NCBI GenBank assembly: GCA_000310025.1
Contig: FN649751.1
Location: 2,911,957 to 2,941,664, forward strand
DNA length: 29,708 nucleotides
Direction: 5' to 3'
Origin: Ectocarpus siliculosus
Lineage: Eukaryota; Sar; Phaeophyceae; Ectocarpales; Ectocarpaceae
A program made the position numbers and the translations under genes. Numbering within the stretch: position 1 is the first letter of the stretch; every line of letters starts with the position of its first letter. Below the pieces are notes generated by a model, which was given only the letters and a program-made list of their open reading frames with translations, was not told where the DNA came from and made no database searches. Below, piece after piece: positions 140 through 22,963 of the stretch.

Positions 140-1222
140 AACCGGGCGTTAAAAAAAACGATTTTTAACGAAGCAGTCCGATCAGCCAGCGGCGGTTTGC
201 GTTACGACTCGCTCCCTCATGATGATGACAGCGTGGACGTTGGACCGGAGGCCTTTGAGGTGGCCGGCGAAATCCAGGTGAGGTTGTTTTCTGGCTTTGA
301 CTAACTTGGAGGAGTGAACAGTTGCCACAGCGCTATTTAGTTGCACTAGCAGTTCGATGCCGCCGCAGCTCCACTGCCAGTAGCAGGAGCAGCAACAAGG
401 GCAGGGACAATAGCAACAGCTACAAACGAGAGATGCTCCCGCCGCCGCTTCGGGATGTTAACCCCACAACACCTCATGATGTAATTTAGTCTGGCGGTGG
501 GATAGTGGTAATGTTTTGCCTGTTAGTGGTACGGTCTCGTTTTCCGCTCGTGCCCAGATGTTTGCTTCTCCCTGTTCTGCCTTTTACGTAGTATGTTTAT
601 GAGCACCCTTTTCGTTCCCCCTTGCTGATCGTTTGACGGAATCTGCTGATGATTTCACGGAATATTGTAGTCTCAACGCATGTCTTTTTGGCGCAACACA
701 TGTGTCTTTCAGGAAGTATATATTACCTCATTTGTCTTACACCGTATCCTTTTACTCCCTCGATAATGTGTGCACCCCTCCGCCCTCCTCCCTCCCCTTT
801 TGCCCTTCGATACCCCCCCCCCCTCCGCTCCCCTCCATTTTCCGTCCTCCGGCACATGCACGTGCGCGCGGCGGCGTCTCTCTTGAATCTGGTCGGTCGA
901 TCTTCCGCACGAACTACACGAAAACAAAAAACAGATTATCGAGCCGCGAAAGTACCGCTTCACGCCGACGGCCAGGGTCCCCACCTGCCCGCTGAGGCTC
1001 ATGCCGCTCGATGGGTCGAGGGTGCAGGGAACGGTGGGACGCAGCTGCGTCGTGACGGCCGTCGCGCAGAAGGTTTGCCGTGTTGGTGGGCGGAAAGGGG
1101 CTGACTGTCGGCGTGGTGTCTTTGTTAGTCGTCGCCTTGTTCCTGTGATTTTCGCCGGATTTTTTTTTTTTGTTTCGCGTTTTCAGTGACACGATTGTCA
1201 TGATGGCCCCTCTCTGTAGCAC

Positions 1223-1266
<44 letters not shown>

Positions 1267-1773
1267 TGCTCTCGTTTCTTGCTTTGCACGATACAGTGTG
1301 CATTTTTTTTCCCGCGTACAAGCCGCGCTCGGTCTGGTTTGTTTGGTGCCGTCACAGCGACGGCCTCTCCATACTCCCAGCCGCACGGCCTGCATATGTG
1401 TGTTCCCTAATCCCCCCCTACTCCCTATTTCGCGCGTGCTGTGTGGGACCCCGTCCACACACCAGGGCACATGGCTCCAAGTGCGTGTGGGCGGGGCGAA
1501 GGAAGGATGGATGCAGAGCCAGTTCTCAGACGGGACGGTTACCCTCGCGGAGGTTGATAGCTATCGAAGGTGAGACAGACAGACAGAGAGATGGTAGAGG
1601 TAGAGCTAGCCTGACCATGCTTCGATTATAAGCTCCTTTCTCTAGCTGGTCTGGTCCGGCACGGGGAGGGGGAGGGGGCGGGGGCTGGAATGTGGATCAT
1701 CTGGGCTGCGCCCGTGCCTAGGCGATGCAAGGGGTTGCCCGAGAAACCTAGTTTTCCGAGGGCAACCGCAGCT

Positions 1774-1805
<32 letters not shown>

Positions 1806-4800
1806 GGGAGTGCCACACGTTCGGAGGCGGTACCAGACGGAGGAAAACGACGAAGGACACAACAGTAGCCGCTGTTGTGCGGTGTCACCTGCGAGTTGGT
1901 TACGTGGCTGTTGAAGCTGCTCTCCAGTGTGCTAGTCAACCCGCCGCGCCTGGGTAACGTCTCCTCTGGATACCCTCCTATGGTGGTCGTGCCGGGACCC
2001 TCTGGCGCGAGGCGGCAGCGTTAAGGGAAGCGGCGGCAGCAAGGTTTGAGTGGGAGCTACTGGGTCTTGCCTCGTGTTGCCCAGGGCAGAGTTGGGCCTT
2101 GCCGTCGCGCGGCGTTCGGTCGAGGCCGATGCTGTAGGCGCGAAAGGAGCTAGAGAGCCGAGCACCAGCTTTGCTCGAGAACGACAGCAGAGCTTTCCTC
2201 TCCCTTTCGTCAGGGTTTTTACGCAGTCTAACCCCCGTGGGGACTGATCGGCACGCCTTCTGGCAGGGGAGGAGCGGAGTTGGGGGTAGGGGGGGGGGTC
2301 CGCGAAATGAAGTACCACAGGAGCTGTTGCGCTCGGGGTACGATAGGCTTGTTGGTGGACTACGTTGAGTTTGTTTTATTTTACGATTTTCGAAGGAAAA
2401 AAATCACTGCCCCGCGCCCGGTCAATGAGGATTGCACCTCACGGCCATTTTTGCTGCTCCCTATGATACCTTCCCCTGTCGTTCTTTGGCATGAAGTTGA
2501 TCGTCGCACGAGCGTTCGTCGACCCGAAAACGACCAAGGCGATCGCAACGTGCAAGGGACGCTGCATCCTCTGCTCTTCCTTGGCCGGTCTGTCTGCTCG
2601 CGTGACTGGTTTTCGAGCCTAGGCGTGGGGAGCTCCAGACTGGGCTTCTGTTCGCCTCTTCTTTTCGCTGGATGTTTTGCTGACCCGGCGAGCCGCATAC
2701 CCTGACTGCCTGCCTGCCTGACTCGTCCACATGCCTCCCTTCTTTCTTTTTTTTTGTTGGGTTTGTTTTGCCGTGCGCTGTGTGAACAACGACTGCCGTG
2801 GTAGACACGAGGAGTGGGGTGGGTTTAACCACTTTTTCTTGGGCGGGAGGGTGATGATGGGGAGCGACGTGAGGTGGTTCCTCAGCAGCAACATCACGCT
2901 CACCGTTCCTTCCATGCTATTCATCTGGGAGATGTTCCAAGGGTAAGTACAGCAGTAGCTCGGGAGTCCTGCACGGAATGTCGATCGCGCCCGCTGCGGC
3001 CCCGGTCCCCCCACCCGCCTGGCCGCATTCAATTGCTACGGCTTGCTTTTGCGGCACCGGTTATGCTGATATTTCGTTTTGCATCTATCGTGTCTCGACA
3101 AAACATGCTGCTGCTGTAGGGCAGCCAAGTGTGCTTTCAGGAAAAGGCCCGTTCGGCATGGACGGCGGCAGTTTGTGCACAAAATGACCCTGACTTCCCA
3201 CCTTGACCTCGACCTTAGCCCGGGTGCGGGTAGAAGGCCGATACAGGTCATCACCACCGCCGTAAAACTCCAAGACTCTTGGGCGGCGGCGTTCGACCTG
3301 AACCCGATCCCCGTCAGTGCGTCCCCCGGAAGCTGACAGCCGTCTTTACCACACTCAGTTTCTCACGGCACCAACCACCTCCAACACCCCTTCTCTCTGC
3401 CGCGTTGTCCATACGTTCCCATGATGTCATTGACTTACCCGTTTCCAACCATTTCTCTTGATCCGGTTCTCCCGTCTGATGGCCCGCCCGCAAACCCGAA
3501 AGGTTTCCGGTGCGCGGGGGAACGATTCTCGGGTGGATTGGGGTGTCGATGTGGGCCTTCGCCATGCTGAGCCTGTGGATGACGGCCTTGACGGACCCGG
3601 GAATCATCCCTCGTAACCCTTCCAACGAGCGAGCACCGCCTCCAGTGGGAGAGGTGTGTGCCCCGCTGTCTTGTTATTAGCACCGATCGCGCTAACCGGC
3701 TGACCAACGAAAAAACGTCAGCCTCAGTGCCGTTGCAAACACAAAACACTTGTAAATGCCATTAACTAGTTGTGTGTGTGTCGGCGTGGTCTAGATTTAG
3801 ATTGTGTTTCGTACGACAGAGGCGACGGCGGCCTGCGTTGGGGAGCAGCGCTGCTGCTTTGGTTCCCCCCCGCGTGTTTTGCGCTGGTTATTTTGGCACG
3901 CACGCTGCTGTATGCATGCGACGACGCACACGTAAGATCCAAGCATTGCACGTTTACGTTTCTGCTTGTACGGCCTGTGCTTAGCGGCACACCCTACCGC
4001 TCTTATGGATGGGGGCTTCACGTTCGCAACAGAAAGCCTCCCGTGACCCTCGACACCCGGAGGCTGCGGCTGCCTCCCCGTCGCCGCTTTTCCTCTTGGG
4101 GCGCTCTTCCACGTATTTTTGTTGTTGGTTTCTTCCTCGCTCCTGCTGCTGTTTATTGCGCGCTTCTTGTATTTTCTCACTACTCCCGCGCTCCCGTTTG
4201 TACCCGCTGCATCGCCTTGTGGTCGACCTCGGCTGTCTGGTTGGAGGACCGCAGGCTATTGGGTTGCACGGCTTCAAGTACTGCGAGACTTGCAACATCT
4301 TCCGCCCCCCTAGGTCCAAGCATTGCCAGTCGTGCAACAATTGCGTCGACAGGTGTGTAGTTTCCCTCCACCGCGCGATTTTCATTCGTTTTTGTTTGTT
4401 TTTTTCGAAGGGTTTTGTGGTGTTTCGTGTGGGTTTTTTATCACGTTGTTTGTGATGCTGTCCTCTCGGCGGACCGTTCAAGCGAACAAGGTGGTGACTG
4501 CTGTTGCATATCTCTCACCAAGGTCCTTCTATTGGCTGGCGCTCGGAGTTGGCAAGGGACGAAAGCGGCCTGAGTGCAGACACCGATCGTTTTTCTCACC
4601 GCTGTGCTCTGTTGGTCCCTGATCCGAGCTACCGGAAGAAAGGCTCCTCTGCGGACGCCGGCGATAGTTGTGGGCGTTGTTTTCTTGCTTTTTGTTTTTT
4701 TATCGTCTGACTGCGACGGAAAGGAACCAAGACGTTGCGGTGTTTGGCCGTTGGCTGTTGGTGGCACCCCTGGACACCGGACCGCTGGACCGCTGGACCG

Positions 4801-7800
4801 CTGGACCGCTGGACAAGACACAAGTCGGTTGTGAAGTCGGTTTTGTGATGGTCGATGTTTGTTGGTTGTCGGGGTTGAGCTTGTTGTCGTCATCGCTACC
4901 AGCGGTGTCGTCGTCTTGGTTGACGGTGTCCCTCCCTCCCCCCCTCCCCTTGTCGTTGTCGTCCGTCGCAGGTTCGATCACCACTGCCCATGGGTCGGCA
5001 GCTGCGTGGCGGTCCGGAACTACCGCTACTTCTTCGCCTTCGTGGGGTCGACGGCGCTGCTCATCTTTTTCATGATGGCGGCGGTGCTGGCGAGGCTGGT
5101 GCTGAGGGTGCTCGTGGACGGCGACGGGTCGGTGGAGAGCATCTTGGAGGTGGTCGCGTCCGGTGAGACGATGCGGGGTGTTTTTAGAAAAAGGCTACAA
5201 CACAACGTTTTACCCGAGAGATGGGGCAGGGTACACGGGGATGCCTTGCAAAAGCTTCCCGACCCTGCCCGGTGCTGCTTTTACAAAAGTTACCCAAGGG
5301 TATGGGGACGTCCTACGAAAGCTCTCGGAGTGTCTGTTAGGGTACAGGATGTCGTACCAATGTTCACAAAGGCTCGGATACAGGTAGTACCCGAGTGCAA
5401 TACCCGGATACCCGGATAAATATGGAACGCCCTACCGACCCTTGTCAAGGATGGACGCACGCCGCGAACGACAATTAATGCGATGAGACATGACGTGCAA
5501 CGCGGTGTGCTGGGCAGTACTGGCTGTATGACTGGCATGGCCGTATGTAGCCGTGCCGTACAGACGTCGCCGTCTAGAAGAGTGCGAGCAGAGAGAGATG
5601 CGATGCGTGCAAGCACGAGTGAAATGGAGGCGGTCATGGCAAGGGCATTGTTTCTGTGGTGGTATTTTGGTGGCAAATGTGAACGGGTCATGGTAGCATT
5701 TTTCCCAAGTCCCCTTGGTGCTAGGCACTCGACGTTTGGGGCATATAGGGGACTAAACTGCACCTTTCATCATGCACGTTTGTGTTGTTGTTGTACACGA
5801 TATGTTTTCGAACCCAACCGGGCGGCGGAGCGAGTTTCGATTCACGCGCTTCGCTCTTTCACCCTTCTCCGGCCCATGCGTGGGTGTTCCTCGGAACGCA
5901 GGCCCTGTGGATCTGCTGATGACGGCGATGGCGCTGCTCGTGGGGATCCCGCTGCTGCGACTTTGGTGGTACCACCTCCAGACGATCCTTTGCAAGGGGC
6001 AGACCACGAACGAGGACATGCGAGGTACCGTATAAACCTGATAGAATCATCTGGCAGCTTTCGATTGCCGTGTTGTGCGCTCACTGTGTCTCTCTGAACT
6101 CCGTGTGTGTTTGTGCTCAGCACCGGAGAATCACGTACGAACAATCCTTTGTGAGGGCCGTGGGTATGCATGTACGCTTGCCACCACTCATGGTCCGTTC
6201 CTCTTCCACCCCCGCTCAAACCAACCCAAAAACCTTCGCTCGCCCTACACCTCCGCCCCGCTCCCCAGCGGTGTACCGAAATCACCACAACAGCTACCAC
6301 AAGGGCTGTTGGCAGAACTCGGTCTCCCTGCTGTGCGCCCCCGCGCCCCGCTCCCGCCTCCCGGACCTGTCGGAACGGGTGTACGTGAACGAGCCTCTAG
6401 CAAGCCGCGGGAGCGGCACCCGCTGGGGCGACGGGGAGCGGGGGTCTCGAACGTTCTCGTGGATTTCTCCCGCCGGCGGGTTCGGATTCCTGGGAGATTC
6501 TGACGGGGACTGCTCCGACCAGCGGCGGCAGCACCAGCAGCACCAGCAGCAGGGCAGGCCGCCGCGGGTTCTGTCGGCGGGGGGCAGCAGCCGGCGGACG
6601 AACAGCGCGGGGTCGTTCGCGAGCGCGAGTTCCTTCGTCAGCTCCGCGGGGGAGGCGTTGTCGGACTTGTCCGAGTTGTCGGTGGGAGGGGGGGGCGGGG
6701 AAGGGCCGGCGGCGGCGGCGGCGGCGGGAGGGGGGGAAACCCCGGTTGAGGCGGTGGTAACGGCGGCGGTAACGGCGGCGGCTTCGGAATACAATCAGGA
6801 TGGTGGTGGTGGTGGTGGTGGTGATGGTGGTGATGAGGATGGTGAAGAAGAAGAAGATGCAAACGCAAACGCGTCGTCAACGTCAGAGGGGCCGCGGGAG
6901 GAAGAAGAGAAAGGGGTAGAAGAAGCGGCGCCAACGCTGGCGATTAGCACCGGGGGGGAGTTGCAATTCTCTAGTCCTCCTGCGGGTGATGAAAAACGGG
7001 AAGCGGGGAGAGAAGGGGCAGCTGACGAGGAGTCGCCACTGCTGGGAGCGCCGGAACCACCCCGAACACCGCCTTCCACAGCCTCCGCATCCTCCCCGCG
7101 TGCGGGGGACGTGCACGGTACGTCTCCTACCACCGCCGCCGCCGCTGCTGCTGTTGCTTCTGACGCGCTAGCCGGTGCGCCAGCACAGCCGGCCGCGGAC
7201 CCGAACGAGATCGACAACGACAATCCTAATAGCACGATTCCGACGATAGTTCGCCACCTCAGCAACAGCACCGACAACTCGTGGCACGGCCAGGCCAAGA
7301 AGGTTTCTAGCCCGTTGGTCGGGCTGTCGTACACCCACAGCCCGCTCTCGGTACGGTCCATGTCCGACGATGCGGGCAGCGGCGGCGGTGGCGGCGGCGG
7401 TAGCCGTAGAGGTAGCGCAAGGGCTTCGGCGACCGCGACAGCGGCGGCGGCGGCGGCGGTGGCGGCGGCAGCGGCGGCAAGGGACGGCAGCCACTCGTCG
7501 GGCGAGCTTACGTACTCGCCGAACCCGTCCGCTGCGGCGCCCGATCCCGAGGAGGAGGAGGTTGTTCCTTGGACCAAAAGCAGTAGCGGCGACGCGAGAG
7601 CACCGTCCGCCGCTCTTTTCAGCGAGGAGGGCGGCGGCGACCGAGGGAGTTACAACAACAACAACGCTCGGGGCCAGGGTGGGCAAGAGGCAGCGGCAGG
7701 GTTCTTTCCCCTGGAGGGGGGCAGCGACGCGGTGTTGCCGGAGGGTGAGGCGGCGGCAGCGGTGGCGGCGGCTGCTGCGGCGGCGATGGGCGCGGCGGGT

Positions 7801-7926
7801 AACAGAGGGAGAGATTCCGGGCGAAGGAGCGATTTCAGAGCCGGCAGCACTAGCGGCAGTCCGTCGCCGCGACGGGACGGGCAGCAGCGGCAGCATTTGT
7901 TGCCTCTAGAGAAGACCCTCCCGTGA
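140..7926 (+). CDS. DHHC protein S-acyltransferase with N-terminal SH3-like domain (5' end outside the window)
   Basis: This enzyme attaches palmitate to cysteines of membrane-associated proteins, usually at Golgi, ER or plasma membrane. Exons by splice site and frame: about 140/190-277, 935-1072, 1466-1569, 2805-2942, 3503-3653, 4255-4352, 4972-5162, 5902-6024, 6269-7926; the last eight join in frame to 866 codons plus TGA. Exons 2-3 read as an SH3b-like beta fold ([20 protein letters not shown]). Exon 4 has [12 protein letters not shown] and helix 1; exon 5 has helix 2 and TDPGIIPR. Exons 6-7 hold the full cysteine-rich domain ([15 protein letters not shown], then [10 protein letters not shown] and NYRYF) and helix 3. 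Exon 8 has helix 4 and a TTNE (TTxE) motif; exon 9 has [10 protein letters not shown] (PaCCT-like), then about 500 residues rich in Ala, Gly, Ser, Glu and Gln. Catalytic Cys and zinc ligands are intact. Exon 1 is open from 140 with no ATG, so the start lies upstream. The enzyme class is sure; membership of exons 1-3 rests on phase and motifs. Confidence 0.93.
935..1569 (+). other. SH3b-like domain encoded by exons 2 and 3 of the DHHC gene
   Basis: Exon 2 (935-1072) runs from [11 protein letters not shown] to TAVAQK and exon 3 (1466-1569) from GTWLQV to EVDSYR. Together they follow the SH3b pattern: a KYR strand, a GT-V turn, VVTAVAQ, then GTWLQV, a glycine turn, EGWM and DGTVTL. Both splice joins are in frame: phase 0 between the two exons, and phase 2 into exon 4, where the split AG+A makes Arg before HEEWGG. 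Such folds usually bind peptides or cell-wall-like ligands; the ligand here is unknown. The assignment is by eye from strand pattern, not from a profile search. Confidence 0.65.
1224..1264 (+). repeat. (CTG)n tract, about 13-14 units
   Basis: An uninterrupted CTG triplet tract in intron 2 of the DHHC gene (1073-1465). It opens in several frames as poly-Leu, poly-Cys or poly-Ala, but lies outside the exon model. Confidence 0.97.
1774..1804 (+). repeat. (GCA)n tract, about 10 units
   Basis: An uninterrupted CAG-type triplet tract in intron 3 of the DHHC gene (1570-2804). It is complementary to the CTG tract in the preceding intron, so the two flank exon 3 in inverted-repeat arrangement. Confidence 0.97.
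3674..3767 (-). repeat. 94-base dispersed repeat, copy A
   Basis: Read on the minus strand this matches 18452-18545 on the plus strand over the same 94 bases without an indel, at roughly 86 percent identity by eye. The best conserved part is the 3' half, with GCACTGAGGCTGACGT and GGTCAGCCGGTTAGCG. It lies in DHHC intron 5 just before a short GT run. Family unknown; a MITE or SINE-like element is the simplest guess. Confidence 0.8.
4780..4814 (+). repeat. Tandem repeat of an 8-base unit
   Basis: Four exact copies of GACCGCTG followed by a partial unit (GAC), within DHHC intron 6 between the exons carrying the first zinc ligands and the DHHC tetrad. Confidence 0.9.
5224..5270. repeat. 9-base inverted repeat in DHHC intron 7
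   Basis: GGGCAGGGT at 5224-5232 and its exact complement ACCCTGCCC at 5262-5270 could form a stem with a 29-base loop. The surrounding 5170-5470 also has locally repeated ACCCGGATA units near 5400-5418, unlike the rest of the intron, and may be an old insertion. Confidence 0.5.
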
Positions 7927-10675: not shown

Positions 10676-13600
10676 TTAGAAGGGGAGGGCGAAGTCGGGC
10701 ACGGATCCCGGGATGAGCGCGGCCGAGACAAACGAGGCCCAGCAGAGCATAGCCGCTCTCCCGTTCTTGAGCTCGCGCATCTTCATCTTCTCCTGCTGCT
10801 TCTCCGTCTTGGGCCAGCCCTTGAAGGGGTCGTAGAAGGGAGTGGTGTCCCCGGACTGCTGGTGCTTCCACTGGGCCGCCTCGGCGCTGCGAGACACCGG
10901 CAGCGGGAGTTGGAGCGGGGGGGCAGGGAGGAGAAATCAGGACTCAAGGGATGAGCGGGGTCGGCCTGTGGGTCTCAAAAAATTTGGAACAAATCCGAGT
11001 TCCAGATGTTAACATGCATGTGCTTCTTCCACGCACAATGTGGCCTTTTCAACTTTCACCGTGGCTACGAACTTCCACCGCACCGTTCCTGGTGGTCCAT
11101 TCGGACTGACTCTCCAAAGAATGTAATTCGAACGCACGATATCGGACGAGATTGCGCTGAACATCCCTCCATTCATGGCATAAAACGAACAGGGCCGCTC
11201 TACTACTACTGCTGTTCACAGATATCAACCGAACCCCCCCCCCCCCAAGAGACAAACGCCTTCTCTCCATGGCGCGCCTCCTCCGGCGTGGTACATTAGT
11301 GTACATAAGTGTGCGTATCACGCTATGATAGCACATTCAACGTCAGGGGTCAAGAGCGAGAGAACGCACATGCCGCAAGCGCCGATGATCTGGGCCCACG
11401 CCTCAGGCGCCGTCTGGAACAGCGCGTCTATCCCGTTCGCCGACTGCACGTCCGTCGCATCGAACATGCCGAAGATTTCTGTAGATGCGGTCAATACGGT
11501 CGGTCGATCGGCGGGGCACAGAGGAGCGAGGGAAGTGGAGGGAGAAGGAGGGGTTCAACATTAGGAGGAAGGGCACGGTAGTTGTTACCAGCTGATTGGC
11601 AGCAAGCAAAACCGGCACGGAGCAGCAGTATTCTCATGCCCAGAACTAGTAGCAGCAGCGGCCAACAACTCTGCCGTTGGTTCTCCACTACGGCACTTGC
11701 GTGTCTCAACAGGTGCAAGGAACCCAACACATGGAAACAAGTGCCGCAATTCTACGTTATCCAACCCAACAGACGAGCACAAGAGTTCTCCCTTCGGTCC
11801 GCCAGCCAACAGTTGCAACACACTCGTAAGAACACCGAACATTGCTGGAACATTCCTCATGCCTGTCTCGTGCAGTTGGCGCTGGGAATCCAACTGACAT
11901 CGACTTGGAACAAAGCTGAAACACATGGTCTGCATGTGACGTTGGTTTTCCTTGCCGAGACTTGACGACGGCAGACAGAAGCGCAGCGAAACTACCAGCT
12001 TTCGAGGTGATTTTCAAGAACTACATAACAGAGTGTTGCTGTTCTACCGTGTTTTACACGGCCGCAATTTCGTAGTAGACAAGAAGGACCATGTCGAGTG
12101 TGGTGCGAAATTAGTGCTTCTATCTCTGTACACTCTGTTTCCCGCGGTCGCGCACAACAACAATCCTTCCGGAATCCCTTGCAACCGACTGCTGTCTTCT
12201 CTCGGGACCCGGCGAGAGAGTACCAATTTTCCCAAGGGGTTGAAGTCAGAGGTAAGGTAACTACTGTGCACAACATGGCTAGAATAAGAAACGAAGGGAC
12301 GAAATTTCTTGCGAAGACATGCCCATAGATCGCGTCTATGGTCCCCAACGAACAGCAAACAGCAGTATCATGGTATGGTTGAAGATTTCAATGTTTTCTT
12401 GGCAAAAAAACGCGTTCAGCGCAAAATCACGAAGGTCTCGACAGTAAGGGCTGAGCAGTTGATGTCGCAAGCGATGGGGGTGCTCTTTATCGTTATTTAG
12501 GTTCTGTCTACTTGTACTTGCGAGCTCTTTGCATATGCCAACGTGCGCCGCTACATGTCAAGTATTGCCAGACAAAAAAAGAGCTTTAAGGCTCCCGTCT
12601 GTGAGCTTGAATAAAAAGTCACATGCACCACTGTAGTGGACAGAAGCAGCTGTTCAACGTACACACAGGTACGTCAGGTTGCGTTAGATACCACACCCCT
12701 GACCGATTTTCAAAGCGCGACTACACTCCACGACAAAAGAAGGATCCGCAATCAAATGATACGTGCTCGAAAGCCCTCACGAGACGGTTCCAACGCCGCC
12801 ATTCTCGTCAACATCACTGAAGTGTTTCTGCGGCTGAGCAATCGGCATTGAAAGATGGTGCGGAAATTCATTTGGCAACGGACTTTAGATCTACAGGAAC
12901 AAGGAACACACTCCCGACAAAAAATGAAAAACGCACTCACGAGGGAAAGCGTATCCTACGCACGCCAGCATCGCCACTCTGCAGTGCACCGTCTCGTACT
13001 TCCTCAAGGTCTCTGCCGGGATGTACTTCGCCAGGTGAAGCGGGTCGAGCGGCTTGCCGAGCGTCTCTACATCGTAACCCCCGATCGCCTCAAGCGAAGC
13101 CATCGCCTGTGGCAACGGGAACAGGAAAGCAGAGTCTGAAAAAACACGACTTTTCGCGCATCCAAAAGCAGCTGCTGCTCAAAGAATCCTGTTATGGGGT
13201 TGCTGTGTATCAGTTGAGAATCAGGTACATCATCAAACATCGACATTTGCGCCGGGTCTTTCTTGTTTCTAACAGCCAGCCCGTTTCCTTGGTGGGAAAG
13301 CCACGGTGTTCGTCCCCTCACGGGTTGCACCCTGCAGCAACAACGGGAGGGACGTACTTGGCGAACATCTGCTGCTGCTGCTGCTGCGCGCCAGGCCGTA
13401 TGGGGTCGGACAAAAAAAAGGTCCGGCCCTTTGTTCCTTAGAAAGCAAACCTGGCTTCCTTACATGAACGGCAGCAATCGCTGCCAAAGACCGACCCAAC
13501 GCAAGCCCGGACCTAGCCAAGGGAACAAGACAGAGAGCGGCATCACGGCAGTCCCACGTCATGTTTGCTCTCTCTCACCTCGGCGTCCGACAAGGGCTCG

Positions 13601-13719
13601 AGAGCGCTAGCGAGGGAGGTGCTGCTCCTCCTTGCAACGCTCGGCTTGACGTTCGCGGGCATGTGGAACGCCTGTGTAGAGGCGACCATTCCCAGAACGG
13701 TGGCTCCCGTGATCTTCAT
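10676..13719 (-). CDS. Chlorophyll a/c light-harvesting protein (FCP/LHC superfamily)
   Basis: An antenna protein that binds chlorophyll and carotenoids in the thylakoid membrane and feeds a photosystem. Exons on the minus strand: 13719-13579, 13106-12941, 11478-11370, 10886-10676; all junctions are GT-AG and in phase, giving 208 residues, normal for the family. The leader MKITGATVLGMVASTQAF is a signal-peptide-like stretch ending in the A-F junction of heterokont plastid preproteins. Helix 1 carries KYETVHCRVAM (residues 83-93, Glu85, His88 and Arg90 being the usual ligand and ion-pair residues). Helix 2 spans about EAWAQIIGACG (128-138). Helix 3 carries RELKNGRAAML (Glu177, Asn180, Arg182). 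The protein ends soon after helix 3 with PDFALPF. The segment before helix 1 (GKPLDPLHLAKYIPAE) and the short tail are not typical of the major Lhcf proteins, so I leave the subfamily open (Lhcr, RedCAP-like or other). Confidence 0.93.
11233..11246 (+). repeat. Poly-C run in LHC intron 3
   Basis: About fourteen consecutive C residues in the last intron of the light-harvesting gene; on the transcribed strand this is a poly-G tract. Confidence 0.95.
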
Positions 13720-13860
13720 AGTCACCAAGGGTTGGTGGTAAGACAGTAAGAGGTCGCGAAGTTGAGACTGGGCGAAAGGAGATGAGGAGAGGAAAAGAGG
13801 AGGGTGTGAAGCGAGCAAGAGCGCGGAAAAAAGACACAACTTGAACACTTTGAACTTTGG

Positions 13861-13915
13861 ATATAGGCCTACGGGATGGGTGACGTCAAACTGTCAACGT
13901 TTTGATTGGCCAATC
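13861..13915 (-). promoter_or_regulatory. Core promoter of the LHC gene: TATA-like, TGACGTCA and CCAAT palindrome
   Basis: Read toward the gene, a palindromic CCAAT element GATTGGCCAATC (13904-13915) is followed by a perfect TGACGTCA (13881-13888) and by CTATAT (13861-13866), about 140 to 200 bases upstream of the ATG at 13719. TGACGTCA is the symmetrical bZIP site. Aureochromes, the blue-light bZIP receptors of photosynthetic stramenopiles, are known to bind TGACGT. That this gene is aureochrome- or bZIP-controlled is inference from the site and its position. Confidence 0.5.
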
Positions 13916-17494: not shown

Positions 17495-19433
17495 TCAAGC
17501 CAGCACGAAATGGTACAATATCATTCGTGCACACCAGAAGCATGGTGTCCATGTGTGTGGCAGTCTTTCAGTAAGAGTCTCCAAGAACTTAAACCCCGGA
17601 AATTCGTGAACCGTTTCTTCCATACGCTGCACGAGTTCGCGAAGAGACGGGCCTTGCGTTGTTTGCTGGTAAGTGAATGAGACTAAACCTCGCTGCCATC
17701 GCTGACGGTGCCGATGTACACCATTCTCCGTGTGCGTCATCTTCACTCGTCCTCGTGTGTGTGCCGTGTGCGTGCCACGAAAAGCAGGGGCGGATACATA
17801 CACATACCGACCATCGCAGAAAATTCAACCCGTCACGGTGTACAGAATAGAGTCAGCTGAAATTTTAATGGATCATTCCTTGTTTACTGTGAAAGCGTTC
17901 AAGAACGGGCTGAACTGCTTTCGCGGTTTAAGAATCGGAGCTCCAGCCCCACGAGCGGCCGCGTGCGGCGAATGCTGATCGCTCAGGGCCTAACGGCGCG
18001 GCATAGTAATAATCCTTGTGTTTATGAACAAAACACACACACTCCCTTGTAGTAGTGCAGTTAGAAATGACCAGGATGGCAATGACGGGAACTCGTTTGG
18101 CAGCGATCAAGGAGGAGGAGAGGGAACGGGAGGAGGACAAGATAGAGATCAAAGCAGCAATCAAGGAGGGAATAATGGCGTGGAAGAGAGCAAGAGCGTC
18201 GAGCCAGATTGCCTTCCCCACCACAAACGACGCAGGGCTAGAGAGGAAATGTCGAAAAGTTGCTATGAAAATGGCCGTGAGAACGATGGAGTTGGAAGGA
18301 AGGAGGATGACGGTGAAAGCACTCCAAAACGAACTCGAGTGCGAGGTAGCAGCCTTCGTAGACGTGTGCAGTTTTCTTCTGTTGCTACCGTTTCTGTCTT
18401 TGATGCGGAGAATAGGTTAGTCTCCCCCATGCCGCCCCCTCACGGGGTCCCAGTTAATGGCATTTAGAAGTGTTCTTGGTTTTCACCCGCACTGAGGCTG
18501 ACGTCTTTTCGTTGGTCAGCCGGTTAGCGTGGTCAACGCTAATAATAAAAACACACACACACACAAATCTGGAGAAACCCAGAGCAGTCTCACCAGTATC
18601 CAATCCAGACGCACGTCGCGCACCCGTTCCCGCAACACTCTTCCGCTTCAGGTTCCTGGTGATGAATGATGGCGAGGTAGGTTACAACCCGAAAACAGTC
18701 AAGATGAGGTTACAATAGTGGTCAACTTTCGTGTGTTGTCGTACGCCGCTCTGTGTGATGAATGGAAGACCAAGTACAAGGCAGGCAAACAGACAGCGCT
18801 GAACTTTCCGGCTTGTTGCCCGCTCACACCAGGTACTCCTGTATGGACTTCGAAGTAGAAAAAGCTCCCAGTCGCAACACATCAAATTCTCAACGAGCAG
18901 GAGCAAAAACACAGAGACAAATCACCAGTAGCCAGGTGTTACAGAGAGAGCATAGCCTACAGCGGGAGTCGTTGTCGTACCCAATGCGACGGTGTCCTTT
19001 CAAGGCATTGGTGTCGAATTGATGTTTCGTCGAGAGTTTTCGGAGGACGAGCAGCCACTTGATTAATTAGCTAAAAAATGGAACGCTGTAAAAAGGCACT
19101 GCTGTGCACGTACATACAGCCACATACCTCCGGTTTCGTCAAGGTATTTCTCAAACGACTGGATTGCCCGACGGGTTGAGCACCACCGGCACTCGCTTGT
19201 TGTGTTGAGCCAAGCTTCCGCTCAAGAGCTGCGAATTCCTCCATCATGAGTTGCTCCGGGGTCTTTCTCCTCGGTGCCTCCCGCGGCGAGGCGAGCTTGC
19301 GCTCCAAATCGGCGAACTCCTCCATTGCCACTGCCTGGGGAGACTTCGGTGGGAGGGCTGGTTTCGTCTGCGCCTGCTGCTGTGGTTGTTCTTGGTGTCG
19401 TTGTTGCTGTTGCTGTTCCTTATCGACTGCCAT
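17495..19433 (-). CDS. Hypothetical protein with duplicated MEEFAxLERKL motif (tentative two-exon model)
   Basis: I do not recognise this gene. The proposed exon 1 (19433-19128, 102 codons) starts MAVDKEQQ, continues through a Gln/Pro-rich stretch and contains two copies of a short helical motif, MEEFADLERKL and MEEFAALERKL, each after a proline-containing linker. It ends at a good donor, GAG|GTATGT. The proposed exon 2 (17665-17495) follows an acceptor CTTACCAG in the same phase and reads QTTQGPSLRELVQRMEETVH onward to TGA, for 158 residues in all. Exon 1 has strong coding character; exon 2 is less sure, because the opposite strand there carries an excellent GTAAGT donor, so the acceptor may be its shadow. 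The function is unknown; duplicated short helices suggest a protein-binding role. Confidence 0.4.
18061..18415 (+). other. Purine-rich open segment, possible exon
   Basis: A good acceptor (TAGTAGTGCAG before 18061) and a donor (AATAG|GTTAGT after 18415) bound a segment open in two plus-strand frames. One frame is Gly/Asp/Asn-rich with basic clusters (HHKRRRAR, PKRTRVRG) and RRRVQF, an RVxF-type motif of the kind used to dock protein phosphatase 1. The other is a charged helix-rich frame with KEEEREREED. The first frame could continue into 18656-18718 (FLVMNDGEVG to a stop). GA-rich sequence often stays open by chance, so I cannot say which frame, if any, is translated. It lies inside the proposed intron of the minus-strand gene. 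Confidence 0.25.
18452..18545 (+). repeat. 94-base dispersed repeat, copy B
   Basis: This is the partner of 3674-3767 in opposite orientation. Both copies start with AGTTAATGGCATTTA and end with GCTAATAA, and have the same length. An A/C microsatellite follows directly. Confidence 0.8.
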
Positions 19434-20014: not shown

Positions 20015-22963
20015 ATGTCGGCTTCCAGAGTAGCTCTTGGAGCAGCGATGCTGGCCCCGATGGCAAGTTCGATTTCCTCACGCGTTGGCGCCGAAGCCTG
20101 ATTGTGTGTCAAACACGCCCGGTATTTGATCCATGAGTGAGTTTGTATGATGTGCTGCCGCACATCCAGCCGGGCGTAGCAGAGCTGCGGGTGCTGAAAC
20201 ATGAGCTGTGCCATATTACACTTATCGTCCTGAGGTAACGCGCTGTTCTCGCTGTGTTTCCTGCACAGGCCCTGGGTTTTCTCGCTCCAATCTCCTTGCC
20301 ACGTGGTACGTCCAACCCTGCTGGTGCCATCAACTCAGCAACATCAGCAGCTGCGGCAAGCAGCTGCAGCGGCAGACGAGCTCCTGTAACAGCAGTGAGG
20401 ATGAGCACAAGAAACGAACCACAGCAGAAACAGCAGCTGAAGGCTTTGGAGATGACCCCACGAAGAAAACAGTTCTTCCGTATGGTGTCAGAGGGCCTCA
20501 AAGTTGGTTTCGAGGGCGAGGACCTCTCCCGTGTGGAGAACTTCGTCCGCTATTGCAAAGGAGAGCTCGAGTACAAGGCGCTGGGCCCGCTCCATCAGGT
20601 TGGTTTTTGCGCTGGGGCTCGTATGCATAGTGCGGAGAACTTTCGGGGGAGGATTAGGACTCGGGCCTTTTAACACAAGCTCCACTTGCTTGGTTCATGA
20701 TGTCATCGAGCGTTTCGTCCACACCATTTTGGTGACGCGTGGTCGTCCTTCTCATATCCGTCCCAAAGCATTGCAACTCCGAGAGGTGAAGCGCGCCCTG
20801 CGGTTCGAGGCTACTACTGCTGTAGTTTAGACTAACTGGTGTGCAGGTTCCACGCCAGGTATCTGATTATACCTTTATTGCAAATTACTATCCTGTCGTC
20901 GTACTCAAACCCGTGCTCGTTGTCTCCCGGATTTCCTACCTGCTCCAGCCCAGCGAGGAGTATGTAGAGGGCCTGCGAGCCAAGCCGTGGTGGGAACCGC
21001 AGGAGTTCGAGTGGATAAGCGAAATGGAGGAGAGGTCAAGCATCGTCATCGACGAGTTCAAGGCGTTCTGGAACGACCCTTTGTCGGGGTTTGCGAAAGA
21101 CAGCGTCAACATGAACATCATGGGCAAGGGTTGGAGCGGCGTCCGCCTTCAGCGGCTGGGCGAGTGGATACCGGAGAATTGCGAGAAGTTTCCCAAGACC
21201 GTCAAGCTACTGAAGGAGCTGGAGATTCCCCTGGCGGTGCGCGGAGTAATGTTCGCGCGGCAGGTGCCCGGGAGCGGGGTGTCTCCGCACACGGACGGAA
21301 GAAATTTCATTTTGACCACACATCTCGGTGAGCAACCAAGCAACCTGCGTTGCCCCCACCCTCCGATATGTAGCGCTGCTGCCTAAGCTTGCTGACTTCG
21401 GTGTACGCGGACACAGCAGTGTGTTTTGAGCGTGGTTGGCGTTGAAGAGAAGGAGTTTTTGTGTGTTTTACGCAACAGCTGGGGTCGCATGGGAGGAAGG
21501 TACAGCAAGAGGTGCTTTTTCGTTCTCTCTCCACCTCCCCACCTTGCGGTGCTTGCCTTTTGTAACGCGAGAAGAGTTCAGCCGTTTAATCCCTCCTTTC
21601 TTGTCTACTCACGACTACCATATGCTTGTCGCACCTACTGAATAATATGTTCTTTCTGCTCCAGAGAGATTCGAACCCGCAAATCTAGAGAGCCAGAAGG
21701 TTACGCCGCTGGACCATCGGGGCTTACGGTGTCAGGTCGCAGTTTCAGCGCCGTGTTCAGGCCGCTGTAGTAGGTTTTGCTATATGTAAATCTAACCCTA
21801 CCTCACTACTGCACCCACTCAATCGATCGAATCGACCGGCTGGCCATCACCAGGGGTAGACGTACCGGAGGATTGCTGGATGCGGGTTGGGGAGGAGAAG
21901 AGGAGTTGGGAGAACGGCAAGGCGCTGATCCTGGACACGAGCTTCGAACACGAGACCCGCAACGATTCTCGGCGCGACAGAATCGTCCTGATCATCGACT
22001 ACTGGCATCCAGGCATGTATCCGCGGTCGCACTGCAGCGTAGCGCCCCCACTTGACAACTTTGCAGCTAAGAAATAACAGCCCGGGGATAGCCCCGGCCT
22101 TCAACTGAACCCTTTCGATTTTTTTTTTTCCCGGGGAGGAAGTCGTGTATGTGTATGGTAGGGAGGGTGGTGGATCAGGTCCAACCAAGAACGAACCATA
22201 CCTATTGGCTGCTGCCACCAACACCGCCAGCAACGCCAGACCCCGCGGCGAGCAGAAAAAGGAACGCTTTGCCCGCAGTTCTGATGGAGAAGGAGAAGGA
22301 TGAGAAGTGCAATTTTGTTGGCAGGTGTTGCCTCATAACGGATACGGAAATGGCACCAGCTACACCGTTCCATCACTGTGGAGAGAGGACGTACGTGCAC
22401 ACTCGACCCAACCGTCTGCTGGGAGTCCGGCATCCTGCTATTATAGACGACGACATCGACGAAAAGATTTGATATACCCTCGAAAAACTCAATAGCTAGG
22501 AACTGGAGCACCATTTATGAGCCCGGTTCAGAACCCCTACGCTAACACTTATTTGGCGGCCATTTGGAGCTCAACACCCTAAACCAGAGGTTTTCTTTTG
22601 CGGGCGTTAGCTGTACTCTCCGTCCTATTGTTGACCAGTGATGCCTGTGCAGGTGCTAGGTGTGCGTGACGGCCGGTTGTCAACGCGCTGAGATAGGATG
22701 CGCATGTTTTATTCCTTGGCTTGTTCGATGAGCGAAGAGTTAAGAAGTACCAGTCCGTGTTTCGTATAGCTGCCGTGGCCCCAATCATTTGCCCTTGCTG
22801 CGCCCGCGGTCGTGCTCTCCCCGCAGACCTCACGAAGGCCGAGCAAGAAGCCCTGGCGTTCGTGTATGACCTTCGAAACAAGTTCGAGTCCGGAGAGATA
22901 CCGCTAGAGGAGCCGGAAGAGAAGGGCTTGTTCGGGGCTTTCAAGCGGGCGTTCCAACAGTAG
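20015..22963 (+). CDS. Aspartyl/asparaginyl beta-hydroxylase-like 2-oxoglutarate dioxygenase, possibly plastid-targeted
   Basis: A member of the Asp/Asn beta-hydroxylase family of Fe(II)/2-oxoglutarate oxygenases. Exons: 20015-20083, 20269-20598, 20949-21327, 21854-22012, 22827-22963, joining in frame to 357 residues. The catalytic core is intact: SPHTDGRNF (His247, iron), TTHLG (His258), SFEHETRNDS (His292, iron) and Arg302, which should bind 2-oxoglutarate; the spacings of 11, 34 and 10 residues are close to those of the animal enzyme. The core is flanked by PWWEPQEFEW before and DLTKAEQEALAFVYDLRNKF after. Exon 1 gives a short hydrophobic leader (MSASRVALGAAMLAPMASSI), followed across the splice by ALGFLAP, resembling a heterokont signal and transit junction. 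Exon 2 also has an in-frame ATG at 20401 that would give an untargeted form. Intron 4 requires a GC donor. The substrate is unknown. Exon 3 could instead begin at 20847, adding 34 residues, but the shorter form fits the family better. Confidence 0.92.
21658..21723 (-). tRNA. tRNA-like sequence or tRNA-derived SINE head (degenerate)
   Basis: On the minus strand, inside hydroxylase intron 3, a 66-base segment starts GCCCCGATGG, holds TGGTCCAGCGG, which fits the Pol III A box, and GGGTTCGAATC, which fits the B box, at tRNA-like spacing. The T arm has one mismatch, the acceptor stem has two, and no clean anticodon stem forms, so it is probably a tRNA pseudogene or a SINE head rather than a working tRNA. 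No identity can be assigned. Confidence 0.4.
22013..22826 (+). other. GC-AG intron of the hydroxylase gene
   Basis: The exon ends ...TGGCATCCAG and the intron begins GCATGT. Only this border gives the reading WHPDLTKAEQ expected of the family; the nearest GT (22017) shifts the frame. The acceptor CTCTCCCCGCAG is a good canonical one. Confidence 0.7.

Follow-up and report, generated by a model that had tools for sequence, protein, structure and literature searches.

A putative SH3b-like domain ahead of the membrane part of a DHHC S-acyltransferase in Ectocarpus siliculosus

On balance, the plus-strand exons between positions 140 and 7926 of the analysed window (29,708 nucleotides of Ectocarpus siliculosus contig FN649751.1) are best taken as one gene, the product of which would be a four-pass DHHC S-acyltransferase with an SH3b-like domain (approximately residues 51–119 of 913) placed just before its first membrane segment. 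The gene model itself holds: nine exons, separated by eight introns of 244 to 1235 bases, all of the GT–AG type, form a single open frame, and their in-silico joining gave 913 codons with the sole stop at the end (TGA, 7924–7926).

Exon structure and the DHHC S-acyltransferase part

The sequence-only reading of this DNA had eight exons joining without a frame error. The frame was indeed kept, but the count differed: seven exons lie within 140–5162, the eight are the first eight of nine, and the model continues past 5162 through 5902–6024 and 6269–7926. The junctions 277/935, 1072/1466, 1569/2805 and 2942/3503, proposed in the same reading, each fall on GT...AG and keep the common frame. Exon 1 (140–277, on the plus strand like all the others) is an open frame that runs from TGA 137–139 to the donor GTGAGG, and its 5′ boundary is uncertain. 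Exon 2 (935–1072; GT–AG, phase 0) encodes the first half of the SH3b-like region, and exon 3 (1466–1569), assigned by splicing and by a match to the GW profile at E = 0.071, encodes the second half of this region and the linker to the DHHC part. The DHHC part begins in exon 4 (2805–2942), which was placed by splicing and by the alignment with ZDHHC9, and which contains the region of the first membrane segment. Splicing together with motifs defines exon 5 (3503–3653; second membrane segment and DPG motif) and exon 8 (5902–6024; fourth membrane segment and TTNE motif), splicing together with PF01529 defines exon 6 (4255–4352; first part of the cysteine-rich domain, CRD), and all three kinds of evidence define exon 7 (4972–5162; DHHC motif and third membrane segment). 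Exon 9 (6269–7926), defined by splicing and by the stop codon, carries a PaCCT-like motif and a long low-complexity tail.

Two of the donors, GTTTGC of exon 2 and GTACCG of exon 8, appeared weak when inspected by eye. Exons 2 and 3 look coding, since their GC3 in the assembled frame (0.89 and 0.68, respectively) compares with 0.75–0.95 in exons 4–8; exon 1 is less coding-like, with a GC3 of 0.59, which is lower than its own first-position GC. The frame is kept if exon 2 is skipped, and is lost if exon 3, or exons 2 and 3 together, are skipped.

The identity of the enzyme as a DHHC S-acyltransferase, claimed earlier from the letters alone, was borne out by the family profile, by a complete catalytic motif and by ZDHHC9 as the best solved relative. 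PF01529 matched residues 230–360 in a Pfam scan (E = 4.6e-36; 124.3 bits against a cut-off of 28.7), and the zinc/catalytic pattern of the DHHC family, C-x2-C-x9-HC-x2-C-x2-C-x4-DHHC-x5-C-x4-N-x3-F, is complete, starting from residue 233. Beyond the fourth membrane segment, at residue 368, there is a PaCCT-like stretch, NSYHKG, which would fit the PaCCT motif. The DHHC tetrapeptide itself occupies residues 258–261, with DPG at 204 and TTNE at 354; DPG and TTxE are given as motifs of DHHC enzymes in an extract of PMC8059564. Past the DHHC motif, exon 7 reads SCVA, as compared with NC[VI]G in the three other aligned rows, Asn and Gly being replaced. The hydropathy profile had three peaks above 1.4, and the first membrane segment was weaker (1.16). 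Among the solved proteins closest by sequence were 8hf3 (ZDHHC9, E = 2.8e-36), followed by 9oa6 (ZDHHC5) and 8hfc (ERF2). The tail past residue 360 comprises 552 residues, mostly Ala, Gly and Ser, and the C-terminal end of the model is LLPLEKTLP.

At the join of exons 3 and 4, the translation runs VDSYR, then R, then HEEWGG, as had been described before, and the phmmer alignment with ZDHHC9 begins at YRRHEEW. The arginine at the end of exon 3 (R126) pairs with a ZDHHC9 arginine that lies on the outermost, lower-confidence edge of this alignment; the unspliced frame would have a glycine in its place. The pairing of R126 thus gives modest support to the 1569/2805 junction. Because no ATG precedes the SH3b-like region in frame, and because exon 3, if left unspliced, runs on to a TGA, two separate genes have also to be considered: exons 1–3 would then close an upstream SH3b-like gene at TGA 1571–1573, with the protein terminating in VDSYRR, and the DHHC gene would start on its own. 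Such an arrangement would fit with the frame of exon 4, which is open back to 2722 and contains ATG 2731 within a poly-T tract, and a protein starting at M144/145 in exon 4 would still have its membrane segments as well as the catalytic motif. However, TGA 1571–1573 overlaps a good-looking donor (AAG/GTGAGA), the phases fit, and the sequence past ATG 2731 is just the pyrimidine tract that would be expected ahead of an acceptor; moreover, it is the spliced frame, and not the unspliced one, that provides the arginine matching ZDHHC9. We regard two genes as unlikely, and keep to the reading of all nine exons as one gene.

Evidence for the SH3b-like region and the 5′ end

An SH3b-like domain upstream of the DHHC part is likely, as judged from profile comparisons. 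Of the earlier claim of an N-terminal SH3b-like module, what stood was its location in the same frame as the DHHC part, by gene structure, and a weak but specific profile signal for a probable SH3b fold. In residues 1–408, the top Pfam matches other than DHHC were SH3_3 (E = 0.025), SH3_4 (E = 0.064) and GW (E = 0.2); AllG, an unrelated family, followed at almost the same level as GW (E = 0.21). A 69-residue piece of the region matched SH3_3 at E = 0.0014, SH3_4 at 0.003, GW at 0.0085 and AllG at 0.018; since three trims were tried and shorter pieces give better E-values, the full-length E-values are the fairer ones. The best scores were all under the Pfam cut-offs (19.2 bits against 27 for SH3_3, 17.7 against 24.1 for SH3_4, and 17.2 against 21 for GW). 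The three SH3-type families converge on one stretch, and positions 11–52 of the SH3_3 profile align in a near-gapless manner with residues 26–66 of a 92-residue piece, spanning the 1072/1466 junction. Not one of ten control copies (one reversed, nine shuffled) matched an SH3 family in Pfam; another family was matched at E = 0.15 by two of them.

The main source of the signal was exon 3, because its shuffling left no Pfam match in any of four copies, and because exon 2 alone did not match anything in Pfam. Exon 3 alone matched GW and Plus-3, which tied at E = 0.071. When exon 2 was shuffled, SH3_3 was gone in three of four copies (E = 0.076 in the remaining one) and SH3_4 in all four; GW stayed in all four at E = 0.0081–0.087, as compared with 0.011 for the intact 81-residue piece. 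Exon 2 thus contributes to the SH3_3 and SH3_4 matches and not to that of GW, and GW, which outlasts the shuffling, is uninformative on exon 2.

Up to E = 10, the sole PDB sequence match of the piece was Lmo1076, which is a Listeria protein containing repeats of the GW type (E = 0.0035), and NCBIfam returned a single weak match of GW type (E = 0.12). By tblastn, the 69-residue piece matched three plasmid records with E-values from 1 to 9, including one annotated as an SH3 domain protein and one as an amidase, as well as 67 phage records; the 25 phage matches listed all had E = 3 and were named tail fibre or fibre protein. The eukaryotic signalling SH3 families (SH3_1, SH3_2 and SH3_9) gave no match up to E = 10 in residues 1–408, in a search where the HMMER filters remove most weak matches. 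Modelled alone by AlphaFold2, the exon 3 peptide was predicted to form three strands (mean pLDDT 83.5), and the exon 2 peptide two (pLDDT 53.1). A Foldseek search with the 34-residue exon 3 model was uninformative: it found no SH3 domain in the best 50 of 72 matches, the best E-value being 3.1.

Some of these results would suit a single gene whose N-terminal region is not SH3b, and is either a small beta domain of a different kind or an extension in which a GxW...GW pattern arose by chance. The scores are under the cut-offs and come mostly from exon 3, for which Plus-3 ties with GW when the exon is taken alone; AllG scores close, exon 2 is poorly folded in the prediction, and Foldseek did not bring up SH3 among its best 50 of 72 matches. 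On the other hand, SH3_3, SH3_4 and GW agree on one stretch, none of the ten controls reproduces them, and SH3_4 appears only when both exons are intact. We consider a region of another kind improbable, and the SH3b-like assignment is the one followed below.

No in-frame ATG is found upstream of the SH3b-like region in the frame of exon 1, which is closed by TGA 137–139, and the first in-frame methionine, M69, is already inside this region. ATG 136 is out of frame, and a run of eight A residues (151–158) separates it from most of exon 1. ATG 219, 222 and 225 were rejected as start codons, being in another frame than exon 1 and, by eye, meeting a stop across 277/935. The missing start codon could be located in an upstream exon beyond the window, or could result from an error in the A run. 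An artefact of the gene model or of the assembly, in which exons 1–3 are not expressed with the DHHC gene, would account for the missing in-frame ATG, for the out-of-frame ATG 136 next to the A run and for the low GC3 of exon 1, but is hardly credible in view of the coding-like character of exons 2 and 3, of the profile match that crosses 1072/1466, and of the upstream exon by which the missing ATG would equally be explained.

Triplet arrays around exon 3 and other features of the window

Exon 3 lies between two triplet arrays of the plus strand, (TGC)13.7 in intron 2 (1224–1264) and (GCA)12.3 in intron 3 (1768–1804), which are inverted with respect to each other and 93–95% complementary over 41 bases. 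RNA folding of positions 1190–1840 (651 bases) gave −307.8 kcal/mol and a z of −7.35, with none of 20 shuffles equal, but as shuffling destroys the arrays, this value mostly restates their complementarity. By the partition function calculated over 1073–2000, the two arrays are expected to form 35.6 of 37 pairs with each other. A stem of about 35 pairs, if formed in the pre-mRNA, would loop out exon 3, and the length of the arrays might tune the yield of full-length enzyme or promote the formation of an exon 3 circle. Repeat length could have such an effect because translation stops in exon 4, after seven of its codons, if exon 3 (104 nt) is skipped. As triplet arrays are common in genomes of such kind, chance is the default explanation for the pair. 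The combined proposal, namely that a brown-algal fusion of a bacterial-type SH3b domain with a DHHC enzyme serves as a recruitment module and has its exon 3 framed by (CUG)n/(CAG)n arrays, is a long shot.

Further repeats are present in the introns of the gene. One arm of a 97-base inverted repeat (3671–3767 and 18452–18548; 86% complementary, dispersed-repeat-like) lies in intron 5, and intron 6 contains a perfect 8-base tandem repeat, GGACCGCT, in 4.5 copies (4779–4814). The window is intron-rich and eukaryotic-looking, and a Pfam scan of open frames in it gave a match in four of the ten that were scanned. Two of them, on the minus strand (10679–10936 and 12894–13178), match PF00504, of the chlorophyll a/b-binding type, and probably encode a fucoxanthin–chlorophyll protein; the frame at 13546–13893 on the same strand, guessed to be the first exon of this gene, is without a Pfam match. 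The other two, on the plus strand (20826–21383 and 21796–22074), match PF05118, aspartyl/asparaginyl beta-hydroxylase, at E = 4.7e-14 and 9.6e-20, respectively.

Putative role and comparison with known systems

Four-pass DHHC enzymes have both ends and the CRD in the cytosol, with the DHHC loop connecting the second membrane segment to the third, and their DHHC cysteine takes up an acyl group and hands it to cysteines of the substrate. C261 would be the acyl acceptor of the Ectocarpus enzyme and would pass the acyl group on to substrate cysteines. Since the N-terminus and the CRD are both cytosolic in four-pass DHHC enzymes, the SH3b-like domain would be located beside the active site, where it may fold by itself at the cytosolic face. 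The cytosolic position of the CRD is also given in extracts of PMC8059564 and PMC4109852. By analogy with ankyrin repeats or with the SH3_2 domain of zDHHC6, the domain may be a docking or regulatory module, and the recruitment of substrates or scaffolds by it, as suggested earlier, is plausible. Docking of a substrate or of an adaptor (peptide) ranks as the most likely of its putative roles. Binding to the membrane surface comes second, as the 69-residue piece is basic (charge +7), and regulation by S-acylation of its cysteines, C64 and C84, as in zDHHC6, comes third. Substrate choice is a standing question for DHHC enzymes, many of which are without a recognisable docking domain, and a small soluble beta domain fused by the active-site face would provide a handle on both ligand and substrate choice.

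A scan of viral contigs with the single protein gave one pattern match, which was not confirmed as a relative, and with an alignment of four DHHC cores none of 19 matches in viral contigs and none of 107 in genome contigs was confirmed. The PF01529 signal was seen in none of 14 control genomes, which does not prove absence. Among the titles and abstract openings listed in searches of the open-licence PMC literature, we found no description of SH3b and DHHC in one protein; an N-terminal SH3b domain on a DHHC enzyme may well stand in eukaryote protein and domain-architecture databases. Separately, zf-DHHC and SH3_3 each partner other domains, according to an excerpt of PMC2837644. Should the architecture be common to relatives, stramenopiles would build DHHC specificity otherwise than in the ankyrin and zDHHC6 designs.

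The catalytic layout of the algal protein is shared with the ZDHHC9/Erf2 group, in which the partner proteins are GCP16/Erf4, and in which we know of no SH3b domain. The GxWxxVxxG...GW pattern is shared with bacterial SH3 domains (SH3_3, SH3_4 and GW). These are found mostly in extracellular wall-binding proteins, whereas the algal SH3b-like domain would be cytosolic, belongs to a eukaryote, and scores under the cut-offs. In Drosophila, a separate SH3 adaptor, Dlish, is by their titles the subject of two pathway papers (PMC13104975 and PMC5047748), one of them together with the palmitoyltransferase Approximated.

Akr1, zDHHC13/17 and TIP1 likewise have an N-terminal protein-binding module ahead of the DHHC membrane part. 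Ankyrin repeats of the Akr1/HIP14 type were not detected in residues 1–408 (no Ank family in Pfam up to E = 10), and zDHHC13/17 and the Akr1 group have six membrane segments, as stated in portions of PMC8059564 and PMC4109852. An ankyrin palmitoyltransferase is named as a candidate in Ectocarpus parthenogenesis in a section of PMC6592573.

The SH3 domain of zDHHC6 had been placed at the C-terminus by the sequence-only reading, and an extract of PMC5582869 agrees, identifying it as SH3_2; according to the same extract, cysteines of this SH3_2 domain are acylated by ZDHHC16. Binding of selenoprotein K to zDHHC6 is described in a passage of PMC8059564. The KKNR end of the zDHHC6 type is missing from the algal translation, which ends with LLPLEKTLP. 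Both proteins thus represent a DHHC enzyme with a domain of the SH3 class, which in zDHHC6 serves for regulation and partner binding; in zDHHC6, however, this domain is a variant SH3_2 at the C-terminus, whereas in the algal protein it is SH3b-like and N-terminal.
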